Source: Bacteroidales bacterium
GTDB taxonomy: Bacteria > Bacteroidota > Bacteroidia > Bacteroidales > WCHB1-69
Direction of reading: 5' to 3'
NCBI GenBank assembly: GCA_017549765.1
Contig: JAFYNM010000036.1
Location: 1-62,708, forward strand
Length of the DNA: 62,708 nt
In this document: positions 4,866-44,552 of the stretch, piece after piece
How the letters are laid out: each line of letters starts with the position of its first letter
How positions within the stretch are numbered: the stretch's first letter is position 1
Made by a program: the position numbers and the translations under genes
Notes under the pieces: model-generated
Database searches by the model: none
Told to the model about the DNA's origin: nothing
The model's input: the letters and a program-made list of their open reading frames with translations, nothing else

Positions 4866-6275
4866 TTAATCTTTTAGGCACCGGACGGAGGCGCGGCGAC
4901 CTTTGGCGGTGACAGCTTGGTAAAAATCCTCACCATCGTAGTCCACACCGTAGTAATAGGCTACATCGGTGTAGTTTTCATATTCGGTGGAGGACCAGAA
5001 ATGCGCATAATAGCCTACATCGTTATACCCATAAACCATCAAGGTTCCTACAGGAACGGCTCCGAAACCTGTGGCGTTGTTGGGATAATCACTCTGGTTG
5101 CCTGGACCACAATCCCCACTGAAGTTCCCCCACCATGACGTGCTGGCCAGTGCCTTGGCTGTGTAGTTTGAGTTGCCACTGCAGGCATATTCAGGCTGAG
5201 AGGCCACATAATCTTTCAGAGCCATCCACTCCGCGTCGCTCGGCAAATGCCAGCCGTTGGGACATACACCCTGCACCCCACTCGGAATGGCGCTGCTGGA
5301 GGTTGTCTCGCGCATCGCAGCAGCCCAGTTGTAGAGGTATCCTCGTTCCACCCACGGGATATAGGAGGTGCTGTCATCATAATAGTTCGGATCGGAGGTG
5401 GTATAGGAGCCCAGAGGAATTGGGGTGCCATCCGCGAACATAGTCGTCCGCAGGTTCTCTTTCATCCAGCACTGGCTGCCTATCAGCACAGTGTTATAGA
5501 CATTGCCTTCCACATCCGTCACCGTAGGAACTCCCGGGCATGGCTGGGTATTGGCAAAGGAAAGGGCGATCGTCTGTGAAGCGTCCTGTGTCTGTATCGT
5601 ATGACTGCTCTCCACCTCCTCACCATTCTGCATGGCAAACCCCACGTATTCCATCTGGTCACCGGGTTCGAAGGGGTTGTCGGTGGAACCGCGGAAGGCA
5701 CGTTTAGGTTGAGGTGTTTGGGTTTGGGTTTGAGACGCCATGTATGGCGTCTCTACAATGTTGGTGAATGTAATATTGCCTTCTCCTCCGTTTCCCTGGT
5801 TCACCATCTTCACTGAGACGCTCTGGCCGTTCTGCCGGGCGGTCAGGAAATAGAGGCCAGGGGCAGAGAGGGTGACGCACATTTGGTAAAGGCCTGGTTG
5901 TTCGGGCGAATAATGATTCGCCCCTACAATGCGCCCGGTAATATCGTTAACATTCACTGTCACGTCGCCGGGTTCGGCCACCTGCAGGTTTACGATGGTG
6001 GTGCCGTCGAAGGGGTTAGGGGTGTTTTGCGATATCTGAAGAGAGGCCCTGCATGGCATCTCTACATCTTGGATGCCCGTGGCGCTCAACACCAGCACTG
6101 TGTCGGGCCATGGCAGCGTCTCTTGCCAGCCCTTGGTAAGGTTGCTGACGACCACGCGGCTCAGGGGGACATACTGGTTGGCAAAGCGTCCAGTGAACGT
6201 CAGCGTCATCGGCTGCGCGGATAAAGACACCACCGAAAGGCAGCATAGCAGCATCGTGGCAATAACTTTTTTCAT
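4866..6275 (-). CDS. FISUMP-domain surface protein with internal T9SS-tail-like module and three in-frame palindromes
   Basis: A 469-residue protein with signal peptide MKKVIATMLLCCLSVVSLSAQ. Residues ~83-165 (TPNPFDGTTIVNLQV, DVTVNVNDITGRIV, GLYFLTARQNGQSVSVKMV) look like the Ig-like fold of T9SS type A sorting domains, but are placed in the middle rather than at the end. Residues ~255-469 (DVEGNVYNTVLIGSQCWMKENL, GYLYNWAAAM, CPNGWHLPSDAEW, FWSSTEYE, ASVRCLKD) are a FISUMP domain (Fibrobacter succinogenes major paralogous family), a lectin-like fold known from many secreted Bacteroidota proteins. Three dispersed palindromes lie inside the gene and encode VEMPCRAS (71-78), VGANHYSP (117-124) and VETPYMAS (174-181). 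Likely exported to the surface; ligand unknown. Confidence 0.85.
   Translation of the reverse strand: MKKVIATMLLCCLSVVSLSAQPMTLTFTGRFANQYVPLSRVVVSNLTKGWQETLPWPDTVLVLSATGIQDVEMPCRASLQISQNTPNPFDGTTIVNLQVAEPGDVTVNVNDITGRIVGANHYSPEQPGLYQMCVTLSAPGLYFLTARQNGQSVSVKMVNQGNGGEGNITFTNIVETPYMASQTQTQTPQPKRAFRGSTDNPFEPGDQMEYVGFAMQNGEEVESSHTIQTQDASQTIALSFANTQPCPGVPTVTDVEGNVYNTVLIGSQCWMKENLRTTMFADGTPIPLGSYTTSDPNYYDDSTSYIPWVERGYLYNWAAAMRETTSSSAIPSGVQGVCPNGWHLPSDAEWMALKDYVASQPEYACSGNSNYTAKALASTSWWGNFSGDCGPGNQSDYPNNATGFGAVPVGTLMVYGYNDVGYYAHFWSSTEYENYTDVAYYYGVDYDGEDFYQAVTAKGRRASVRCLKD
5732..5756 (-). repeat. Dispersed palindrome, copy A (coding)
   Basis: Arms GAGACGCCAT (5732-5741) and ATGGCGTCTC (5744-5753) with a 2-base centre, ending CTAC on the plus strand. 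On the coding strand it reads GTAGAGACG... and encodes VETPYMAS in frame. Same family as copies at 5904, 6041, 39777 and 44525. Confidence 0.85.
5904..5927 (-). repeat. Dispersed palindrome, copy B (coding, GGGCG variant)
   Basis: Arms GGGCGAAT (5904-5911) and ATTCGCCC (5916-5923) with a 4-base loop, ending CTAC. On the coding strand it begins GTAGGGGCG and encodes VGANHYSP, in the same frame relative to GTA as copies A and C. Confidence 0.8.
6041..6065 (-). repeat. Dispersed palindrome, copy C (coding, imperfect)
   Basis: Imperfect inverted repeat with two mismatched pairs (6041-6062), ending CTAC. The coding strand begins GTAGAGATG and encodes VEMPCRAS, again with GTA as the first codon. 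Confidence 0.7.
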
Positions 6276-38934: not shown

Positions 38935-39780
38935 ATGACTCAAAAACAAGCATTGCAAATCTTCGATAAAAAAAGAATCCGCACCGCATGGGACGACGAA
39001 TCGGAAAAATGGTATTTCTCTGTGGTTGATGTGGTGGAGGCACTTACCGACAGCACTAACCCGAGAAGTTATTGGAAAGTATTGAAACATCGGCTAATCA
39101 AAGAAGGAAATGAGTTGGTTACAAATTGTAACTAGCTGAAACTATTAGCTTCCGATGGAAAAAAATACAACACCGATGTAGCTGACACAGAGCAACTTCT
39201 TCGAATAATCCAGTCCATACCTTCACATAAAGCGGAACCATTCAAGCAATGGATGGCGCAAGTGGCGAGTCAACGCATTGACCAGATGCAAGATCCAGAA
39301 CTTTCCATCAACCAAGCGATTGTTGATTACCAACGACTTGGATATTCGGAAGCCTAGATAAACCAGCGAATCAAATCCATAGAAGTGCGCAAACATTTGA
39401 CAGACGAATGGAAACGGGCCGGCGTGGAAGAGGGGCAACAATTCGCATCCTTAACGGATATTATTTACAGACAATGGAGTGGGTTTTCTGCTAAAGAATA
39501 CAAACGCTTCAAAGGACTGAAAAAGGAGAATCTCCGCGACAATATGACCGACCTCGAAATAGCTGTTAATATGTTGGCCGAAGCCACTACCACGGAACTT
39601 TCAAAGCAAGAAAATCCTAATGGGTTTACAGAAAGTGCAGGCATCGCGAATCGTGGAGGAAAAGCAGCTCGTGGCGCGCGCAAAGTGATTGAGAAGGAAC
39701 TCGGACATTCTATTGTGTCCTCGCAAAATGCCAAAAGCCTTACAAAAGGCAAAAGGACTATATCATTGCCTGAAAAGTAG
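38935..39780 (+). pseudogene. Bro-N / DinD-like protein interrupted by two TAG codons
   Basis: One frame runs from the ATG at 38935 to 39780 but has TAG at 39133-39135 and 39355-39357. The N-terminal piece (KKRIRTAWDDESEKWYFSVVDVVEALTDS) is a Bro-N domain; the middle (LLRIIQSIPSHKAEPFKQWMAQVASQRIDQM) and C-terminal parts (RKHLTDEWKRAGVEEGQQFASLTDII) match the DNA-damage-inducible DinD-like relatives. Reading through gives an otherwise intact ~280-residue protein. From the family pattern as I recall it, the first TAG replaces Gln (CAG to TAG) and the second a Trp (TGG to TAG), which argues for ordinary decay rather than recoding. The final stop TAG (39778-39780) lies inside a dispersed palindrome, so the original end may be changed too. 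Confidence 0.8.
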
Positions 39781-39805
39781 AGACGCCATTCAATACGTCT
39801 CTATC
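39777..39805. repeat. Dispersed palindrome, copy D (intergenic, supplies a stop codon)
   Basis: Arms GTAGAGACG (39777-39785) and CGTCTCTAT (39796-39804) with a 10-base centre. The TAG of GTAGAGACG is the stop of the Bro-N reading frame. Same family as copies in the FISUMP gene and at 44525. Confidence 0.8.
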
Positions 39806-43548: not shown

Positions 43549-44520
43549 ATGGAAACCAAAGAATTTACAAAAAAACTGTCGGCAGGAAACAATGGTTTTC
43601 TGCACCTTTTCATCAACTTGGGGTTGCTGGCCCTTTTCATTTGGGTCGTGGTGGCATTAGGCAAAATGGACTGCATACTGGATGCTAACGGAGAGCCCAC
43701 AGCGTGGCTTCTATTGCCTATCCTCACAGGTATCATCCTCTTTTTCATCTATCTGCTCCATTTGATAGGGTTTATTATCGTACAGCCCAACGAGTCGCGG
43801 GTACTCACCTTCTTCGGCAAATACTCCGGCACGGTCAAAGAGAACGGCTTCTTCTGGATCAACCCCTTTTATGGCAAGGAGAAACTTTCGTTGCGTGCCA
43901 AGAACATGGATGTGGAACCCATCAAGGTAAACGACAAAAACGGAAACCCCATCATGATCGGGTTGGTGCTGGTGTGGAAGATCAGCGACACTTACAAAGC
44001 TTGCTTTGAGGTAGATTCTGACGTCCGCAGCACCATCACGGAGAACTCCATGAAGTCGGTCAAGAGTTTCGACTCTTTCGTGCGGGTGCAGAGTGACGCC
44101 GCGTTGCGCAAGGTGGCAGGCATGTATGCCTACGACAATATGGATCGTGACGACAACCAGATCACGTTGCGATCGGGTGGCGAGGAAATCAACGATCGCC
44201 TGGAAGAGGAGTTGCGCAAGCACTTGGAGATTGCCGGTATCGAAGTGGTGGAGGCCCGCATCAACTACCTGGCCTACGCCGCGGAGATTGCCAGTGTGAT
44301 GTTGCGCCGCCAGCAGGCCGACGCCATCATCTCCGCCCGCGAGAAGATCGTGGAGGGAGCCGTCAGCATGGTGGATCTCGCCCTGAAGAAGCTCTCCGAC
44401 GACAAGATTGTGGAGCTGGACGAGGAGCGCAAGGCGGCCATGGTCTCCAACCTCCTCGTGGTGCTCTGCGCCGACGAGTCCGCCTCTCCCGTCATCAACA
44501 CGGGCACACTGTATCAATAA
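43549..44520 (+). CDS. SPFH/Band 7 domain membrane protein
   Basis: A 323-residue stomatin/prohibitin-like protein. Two N-terminal transmembrane helices (residues ~18-38 and 50-78) are followed by the SPFH domain starting FIIVQPNESRVLTFFGKYSGTV, then a C-terminal coiled helix (YLAYAAEIASVMLRRQQADAIISAREKIVEGAVSMVDLALKKL). Such proteins form oligomeric rings that organise membrane microdomains or associate with proteases. The following Arc-like gene is 47 bases downstream, across palindrome copy E, so the two may share a transcript. Confidence 0.88.
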   Translation: METKEFTKKLSAGNNGFLHLFINLGLLALFIWVVVALGKMDCILDANGEPTAWLLLPILTGIILFFIYLLHLIGFIIVQPNESRVLTFFGKYSGTVKENGFFWINPFYGKEKLSLRAKNMDVEPIKVNDKNGNPIMIGLVLVWKISDTYKACFEVDSDVRSTITENSMKSVKSFDSFVRVQSDAALRKVAGMYAYDNMDRDDNQITLRSGGEEINDRLEEELRKHLEIAGIEVVEARINYLAYAAEIASVMLRRQQADAIISAREKIVEGAVSMVDLALKKLSDDKIVELDEERKAAMVSNLLVVLCADESASPVINTGTLYQ

Positions 44521-44524
44521 AACT

Positions 44525-44552
44525 GTAGAGACGTTCCATGGAACGTCTCTAC
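44525..44552. repeat. Dispersed palindrome, copy E (perfect 28-base form)
   Basis: A perfect palindrome: arm GTAGAGACGTTCCA (44525-44538) and its exact complement (44539-44552). It falls 4 bases after the SPFH stop and 15 bases before the Arc-like ATG. It contains an ATG in frame with the Arc-like gene, but that reading would add ten residues from the repeat and a better ATG follows at 44568. Confidence 0.88.

Follow-up and report, generated by a model that had tools for sequence, protein, structure and literature searches.

Repeats as small as the palindrome described here are usually regarded as extragenic. Very small mobile repeats were reportedly found in Nostoc by Elhai et al. in 2008; cyanobacteria also hold our palindrome. 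The GTAG REP super-family (Di Nocera, De Gregorio and Rocco 2013, PMC3733652), in the portion of that paper drawn on here, shares with our element the form of a short GTAG-headed palindrome and its occurrence in many copies, mostly extragenic with some in open reading frames (ORFs). The same portion reports different REPs at about the same recB site in two Xanthomonas species and names Bacteroidetes only as hosts of CGTC repeats. RAYT-REP systems likewise have GTAG-headed hairpins of similar size, and the excerpted account places RAYT genes always between two inverted REPs (Nunvar et al. 2010, PMC2817692). Palindromic elements of Rickettsia lie in frame within unrelated genes, as our element does, according to the passages cited (PMC10969869, PMC3733652). 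For Bacteroidota, the available text of a further paper gives REP counts for genomes and does not contain the word 'intragenic' (PMC12306157). In the open-licence literature and the few subscription journals covered, neither the in-frame occurrence of GTAG palindromes in Bacteroidales nor an exchange of cores at fixed sites was the subject of any paper found.

Like the GTAG REPs, our element is a palindrome within 20-40 nt (28 nt), is present in many copies, has a GTAG end and is mostly extragenic. The GTAG tag of that super-family is described as unpaired, whereas in perfect copies here GTAG pairs with a terminal CTAC, and its RAYT genes are said to have GTAG repeats or long inverted repeats on either side (both in the portion used of PMC3733652), whereas no such link was found here. 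The Y1 transposase genes examined are unflanked, unlike the RAYT genes of Nunvar et al., and neither a flanked RAYT gene nor a transposase of the Y..NP class was seen in the loci examined. Rickettsia elements are about 150 bp long (PMC10969869, as excerpted) and those of R. conorii end in CGTC (PMC3733652, as excerpted), in contrast to the 28-nt unit and GTAG ends found here; core turnover at fixed sites further sets our palindrome against them. It acts like the Rickettsia elements without kinship to them, and the likeness drawn by an earlier, sequence-only reading of this DNA was a fair one. According to our analysis, this REP-like palindrome is real and widespread, and its life inside genes is unusual, marked by shared sites, a favoured frame, arms apparently kept as DNA (in GH97 and AroA) and core turnover. 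A single repeat family contributes peptides to T9SS sorting domains, to a GH97 glycosidase and to an EPSP synthase, and where Bacteroidales proteins show variable VETxxxxTSLQ or VGAxxxxSPLQ stretches, these can stem from dispersed DNA repeats. How REP-like palindromes copy themselves and remain self-complementary without an obvious transposase becomes a testable question.

Palindromes of the FISUMP gene and their family

The window, meaning the whole stretch of 62,708 nt that was analysed, carries on its reverse strand a gene for a protein of 469 aa (4866..6275) with a T9SS sorting-like domain and a C-terminal FISUMP domain (residues 257-469 in a domain search). The T9SS type A sorting-like domain (residues 85-158; 5802..6023, reverse strand) was recognized by Pfam Por_Secre_tail (E 1.6e-5, 25.5 bits, below the cut-off of 27) and by NCBIfam (E 3.8e-7, 30 bits, above the cut-off of 23). 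As the sequence-only reading had proposed, three palindromes lie on the coding strand of this gene, all beginning on a GTA valine codon and giving the 8-residue peptides VEMPCRAS, VGANHYSP and VETPYMAS; none of the three is intact, and the extent of decay differs among them. Element 1 (GTAGAGATGCCATGCAGGGCCTCTC; 6038..6065, reverse strand, first base 6065 on the coding strand, GTA codon V71) is decayed, with three mismatches among 18 arm letters, and encodes residues 71-80 (VEMPCRASLQ) of the linker preceding the sorting domain. Element 2 (GTAGGGGCGAATCATTATTCGCCC; 5900..5927, reverse strand, first base 5927, GTA codon V117) lies within the sorting domain, encodes residues 117-126 (VGANHYSPEQ) and ends in GAAC in place of CTAC; its GTA is the valine of the sorting-domain GRxV, which is invariant across a 10-row FISUMP alignment. 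Element 3 (GTAGAGACGCCATACATGGCGTCTC; 5729..5756, reverse strand, first base 5756, GTA codon V174) encodes VETPYMASQ from residue 174 on, C-terminal to the sorting domain, and ends in AAA in place of TAC.

The same reading had placed two related palindromes outside genes, and both were found, one imperfect and one perfect. Element 4 (39777..39804, forward strand) lies between ORFs, has one arm mismatch and has lost the palindrome of its core, while element 5 (44525..44552, no strand assigned) is the perfect 28-nt palindrome GTAGAGACG-TTCCATGGAA-CGTCTCTAC, starting 4 nt past the stop codon of the forward-strand ORF 43549-44520. The palindrome pattern gave no match in 100 shuffled versions of the window, and no Rfam RNA family matched the window at the gathering threshold.

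The intact form, GTAG(A/G)G(A/G)CG-N10-CG(T/C)C(T/C)CTAC, is a full 28-nt palindrome with 9-nt arms and a 10-nt core. Its commonest flanks are a T before and an A after (30 nt including both), with the T directly 5' of the element in 64% of intergenic and 64% of genic flanks. In the own genome of the window, 24 places differ from the 28-mer by no more than one letter, against none for the reversed control. At this threshold the 28-mer was present in 44 of the 60 genomes searched, own genome included, and in 9 of 25 genera, with all 36 genomes searched of the genus (own included) positive at 6 to 309 copies each; the reversed 28-mer gave 0 or 1 per genome over the 60 genomes. A scan of named genomes with a DNA pattern of GRxV plus palindrome returned at least 118 stretches. 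Among the 80 matches listed were many Bacteroidales bins, several of them named for samples of rumen or other animal gut, together with Planctomycetes, Chloroflexi, Nitrospinota, Acidobacteria, Fibrobacterota, Omnitrophota, Gemmatimonadales, Cyanobacteria (Anabaena, Nostoc, Phormidium) and one archaeal bin; outside Bacteroidales, many copies among the matches listed fall outside ORFs. The palindrome was also present in 109 stretches of viral contigs. The family is widespread, and the rumen Bacteroidales genus studied is one rich host among others. On one viral contig (L505, 3208-3643), a single ORF of 564 aa contains an array of the palindrome that repeats every 42 nt along most of its extent.

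When the arms were the sole filter, 161 GAGACG-type copies in loci of the genus yielded 91 perfect palindromic cores and 54 cores with exactly one mismatched pair. The perfect cores use 16 half-cores out of 1024 possible, which are common across the genus. Among 97 intergenic gaps classed by the orientation of the neighbouring genes, 51 were co-directional, 33 convergent and 13 divergent.

Reading frames and host proteins

Reading frames were tabulated for elements of the own genome and of sampled parts of four relatives (80 stretches amounting to 293, 284, 349 and 309 kb, 21 of which had been picked through an earlier FISUMP or GRxV match), with ORFs called mechanically. The 158 elements classed comprised 69 intergenic copies, 41 across an ORF end and 48 intragenic ones; the element is mostly extragenic in the sense that 110 copies do not lie inside an ORF, the own genome being the exception with 17 of 27 inside. 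Since the element is symmetric, only three frames are possible, and one of them always hits TAG. The intragenic copies were distributed as 41 in the GTA frame, seven in the other open frame (xGT AGA GAC) and none in the TAG frame, far from the even spread over three frames that would have spoken against a favoured frame. In the own genome the ratio was 17:0, drawn from seven gene families with some near-duplicates at contig ends, and 18:0 under looser margins. With neither the own genome nor the match-picked stretches it was 11:5, four of the five lying in ORFs judged doubtful, and by gene family (n=20) 13 used the GTA frame only, four the other only and three both. Counted by gene family the bias is modest; the own genome shows it clearly, the relatives less strongly and in part doubtfully. 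The earlier proposal that the element tolerates or selects for this frame is right in that the preference is real, while part of the bias requires no special selection because one of the three frames always meets TAG. Outside these counts, the one-mismatch copy C10:413 is in the GTA frame and the one-mismatch copy C18:8442 failed the element test. The viral contigs examined gave 24 intragenic copies in the GTA frame, 14 in the other and one in the TAG frame, of 108 elements (mechanical ORFs). The other-frame site was judged real in AroA and in the AcrB-family pump. TAG recoding in AroA was considered because four matches were flagged '1 TAG', and was rejected: the stop closes the match in L538, L541 and L543, and none is present in L539.

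Ten host proteins were scanned with Pfam. They include an EcoRI-type methylase with the element C-terminal to the matched region, an AlkZ-like protein, an M28 peptidase in which we read the element as following right after a signal-peptide-like start, GH53 and GH97 proteins, the AcrB-family pump and the EPSP synthase; three of the ten have a T9SS sorting domain. Twelve of the 41 GTA-frame copies stand at most eight residues after G(R/K/Q)x(V/M), and GRxV followed by the left arm was matched 40 times, in 19 of the 40 genomes of the genus (reversed control, 8). In another T9SS tail (L162, G006:C92), a tandem expansion of ATGAS stands beside the palindrome-like peptide VGTRFIASA.

Shared sites and conservation of the arms

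The sequence-only reading had taken the three palindromes of the FISUMP gene for separate insertions. Homologues bear palindromes at the same sites and in the same frame, and the three copies of the window are for this reason not independent recent insertions. With a simple arm pattern, 8 of the 29 loci with homologues proved to have the left arm at one or two of the three positions; the frame never differed, the core often did, and further homologues hold decayed forms. The earlier reading had also proposed that orthologues with the same peptides and no palindrome would count against it. Such peptides exist in part (GTNHYLASEPG in L116, GANHYSPLQLG in L119), and they come from decayed palindromes. 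In the comparison with homologues that it had suggested, several of those lacking the palindrome at site 2 carry a different sequence that is equal in length or one residue shorter. In the 10-row alignment the V117 column is invariant and the L125 column nearly so.

Two other genes display the same sharing of sites. At the GH97 site (27 of 30 loci gave rows), 21 elements from 18 of the 27 covering loci have 10 different cores, and L264 has six extra residues immediately upstream of the element. At AroA site B, nine elements from 30 loci have eight core strings (seven ignoring strand), and orthologues lacking the element also lack its residues. At AroA site D, the flanks of G060 and G005 are identical over the stretch shown, and the palindrome of G005 is 9 nt short, in frame. 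Judging from these alignments, a sequence of nearly the same length seems to have been replaced in GH97 and at FISUMP site 2, and about 8-16 residues seem to have been gained in AroA; no clean pair of empty and filled sites, of the kind that would show a MITE-like target-site duplication, gave the exact inserted length. AroA of L541 (G063) and L538 (G007) have a near-identical C-terminal half and different N-terminal halves, which signals gene import between species.

Conservation of the arms was measured as third-position identity in rows picked by their first three residues, with no palindrome filter and with the 20 codons upstream as reference. Identity in arms, upstream reference and core was 0.86, 0.54 and 0.52 in GH97 (23 rows), 0.97, 0.50 and 0.39 in AroA (10 rows), and 0.59, 0.43 and 0.45 at FISUMP site 2 (13 rows). 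A version filtered for elements, with downstream flanks left out owing to indels, gave arm identities of 0.92 (GH97), 0.96 (AroA) and 0.81 (FISUMP), values that are inflated because only good-armed copies entered. We rejected this version as proof since it is partly circular; the conservation persists without the filter in GH97 and AroA and is weak at FISUMP site 2. Over every row, with or without an element, arms and upstream reference gave 0.71 and 0.54 for GH97, 0.37 and 0.30 for AroA and 0.39 and 0.37 for FISUMP. The arm third positions of GH97 and AroA stand far above their flanks, which points to arms kept as DNA and not as peptide. The FISUMP copies are mostly decaying.

The protein need for a V..(8)..LQ motif, with the palindrome as a by-product, could account for the invariant V117, the nearly invariant L125 and the decay of FISUMP copies at synonymous sites. 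This reading is nevertheless hardly probable at all, as the synonymous positions of the GH97 and AroA arms are far more conserved than their flanks, and identical letters reappear in unrelated genes and in another frame.

A GH97 tree built with the element excluded implies that cores changed 12 times or more over the 21 filled rows, which fall into seven core classes, and that the site switched between filled and empty seven times or more over 29 rows; loci L270 and L277-L279 were left out, and L260, whose core is a chimera below the palindrome threshold, was labelled 'none' and so counted as empty. Of its inner branches, 12 of 26 are well supported and 8 of 26 are open. Related GH97 genes differ at several core pairs while their arms agree. 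The element-free GH97 genes of L274, L269, L271 and L276, scattered on the tree, have in common an AT-rich stretch that is almost identical in all of them and reads STIQQINNIT or nearly so; this stretch may be a repeated in-frame insert in its own right. The C-terminal part of a further GH97 gene (L201, G026:C50) contains the in-frame, tandem-repeat-like SEFRTHNSEFIIHNSELK.

Core exchange, Y1 transposases and rival explanations

Clues to how cores change come from chimeras and remnants. In L180, CGGCG is joined to TTGCG, and in L260 half of TTTCATGAAA is joined to half of TGCCATGGCG. Strict chimeras number one among 161, L260 being added when the imperfect half CGCCA/TGCCA, a common one, is accepted; we rejected chimeras as the main route of exchange, there being just one strict case and two at most. 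A survey of 584 elements turned up 33 arm remnants no more than 28 nt from a complete copy (a few rows represent the same place twice). Fifteen of the 33 stand 11-15 nt and 21 stand 11-18 nt before the next copy, the centre of the palindrome being at 14. The remnants L161, L458, L342 and L351 have another core type than the adjoining complete copy, and L272 and L219 resemble tandem duplications ending near the palindrome centre. Chimeras, remnants and the 9-nt loss in AroA fit, and do not prove, a model in which replication stalls at the hairpin and switches template there, the arms serving for annealing. Homogenisation of cores per genome was rejected: the core at GH97 weakly matches those found elsewhere in the same genome (p = 0.03, from 12 sites and three core types), and G027 does not bear this out, holding no second exact copy of its GH97 core.

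We posit, at slightly better than even confidence, a dispersed hairpin element whose arms are held as DNA and whose cores are repeatedly overwritten. A non-coding, self-complementary element of 28 nt (30 nt with T and A) would spread as a DNA hairpin, with the majority of copies settling between genes or at gene ends. A genic copy would survive only in the two TAG-free frames, chiefly the GTA frame, where it would add about ten residues, VETxxxxTSLQ or VGAxxxxSPLQ, to a linker or loop. An occupied site could persist for long periods, its 9-nt arms being maintained at the DNA level and its central 10 nt being overwritten again and again with a core taken from elsewhere; the likeliest routes would be template switching or a short ectopic conversion, with the arms that copies have in common as the anchor. 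The remaining copies would decay, as the three genic ones of the window do. The element and its spread, the sharing of sites and frame, the conservation of arms at synonymous positions in two genes, core turnover, the one or two chimeras and the half-plus-full remnants are observed; that the hairpin is mobile, that an enzyme moves it and that cores are exchanged through template switching is what we infer. Against template exchange, gene import as seen between G007 and G063 could move cores between lineages.

Y1 transposase genes (PF01797) gave 87 matches in 36 of 40 genus genomes. None of the 32 loci examined (of the 87, some cut by contig ends) had an element adjoining the Y1 gene, and three had a copy within about 1.5 kb; the Y1 transposase as the element's neighbour, in the own genome and in the genus, was rejected accordingly. 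All of the 28 loci with readable motifs are Y..Q (12 QK, 9 QE, 7 QA), with no Y..NP class among them. In the part of the source used, Y..Q motifs belong to classes 1.1 and 1.2, and class 1.2 is found mostly in Cyanobacteria and Bacteroidetes, generally without typical terminal structures (PMC6006769). Copy number and number of Y1 genes (E < 1e-10) are correlated across 36 genomes, with a Spearman coefficient of 0.57, or 0.40 (p = 0.008) with genome size removed, both without correction for kinship; we take this as a lead rather than a link.

A sequence-specific transposase that repeatedly reuses a preferred target in orthologues, older copies being lost, would agree with the T that precedes 64% of intergenic and of genic copies, with the element-free GH97 orthologues scattered on the tree (at least seven filled/empty changes, 29 rows) and with the rise of copy number with Y1 gene number (0.57, or 0.40 without genome size). 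We consider it unlikely, as a one-base preference is insufficient for hitting the same codon position in many orthologues, the GH97 and AroA arms are intact despite diverging flanks, and the Y1 genes examined have no flanking element. The lack of a flanking association also weighs against canonical GTAG REPs moved by RAYTs in the gamma-proteobacterial style, as do the pairing of GTAG with CTAC in perfect copies and the 28 readable Y1 proteins that are all Y..Q and none Y..NP. GTAG start, size and copy number do match, copies sit away from divergent promoters (51 co-directional, 33 convergent, 13 divergent) and intragenic REPs are already known (PMC3733652, in the portion used), yet we regard this origin as very unlikely.

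Slow drift from one old insertion per site, with template switching inside the hairpin keeping arms and core self-complementary and cores diverging pair by pair, is decidedly unlikely in our view. It would explain why 91 of 161 cores are perfect and 54 off by one pair, and template switching does homogenise inverted-repeat arms in yeast (PMC8604942, as excerpted), but the perfect cores are limited to 16 of 1024 half-cores genus-wide and related genes differ at several core pairs with their arms agreeing. Beyond the overwriting of cores that we favour, a more far-reaching possibility, to which we give a small chance, is a slot-and-cartridge arrangement in which fixed arms would mark slots in genes for exported and housekeeping proteins and the host or a single-strand Y1 nuclease of the Y..Q class would actively copy cores from slot to slot, diversifying surface peptides. 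If true, it would be a palindrome-based counterpart of diversification by gene conversion that leaves the reading frame untouched.

Two Y1 genes stand amid repeats of other kinds. In L035 (G000:C21:3000-11080, about 1900-2850), a Y1 gene of the Y..Q type is surrounded by repeats of another GTAG hairpin, GTAGCGTGCCTTC(G/A)GCACGCC, and its variants. A second Y1 gene, in L036 (G000:C29:360000-363500, about 1300-2080), lies amid GCATCTC...GAGATGC inverted repeats of a further type.
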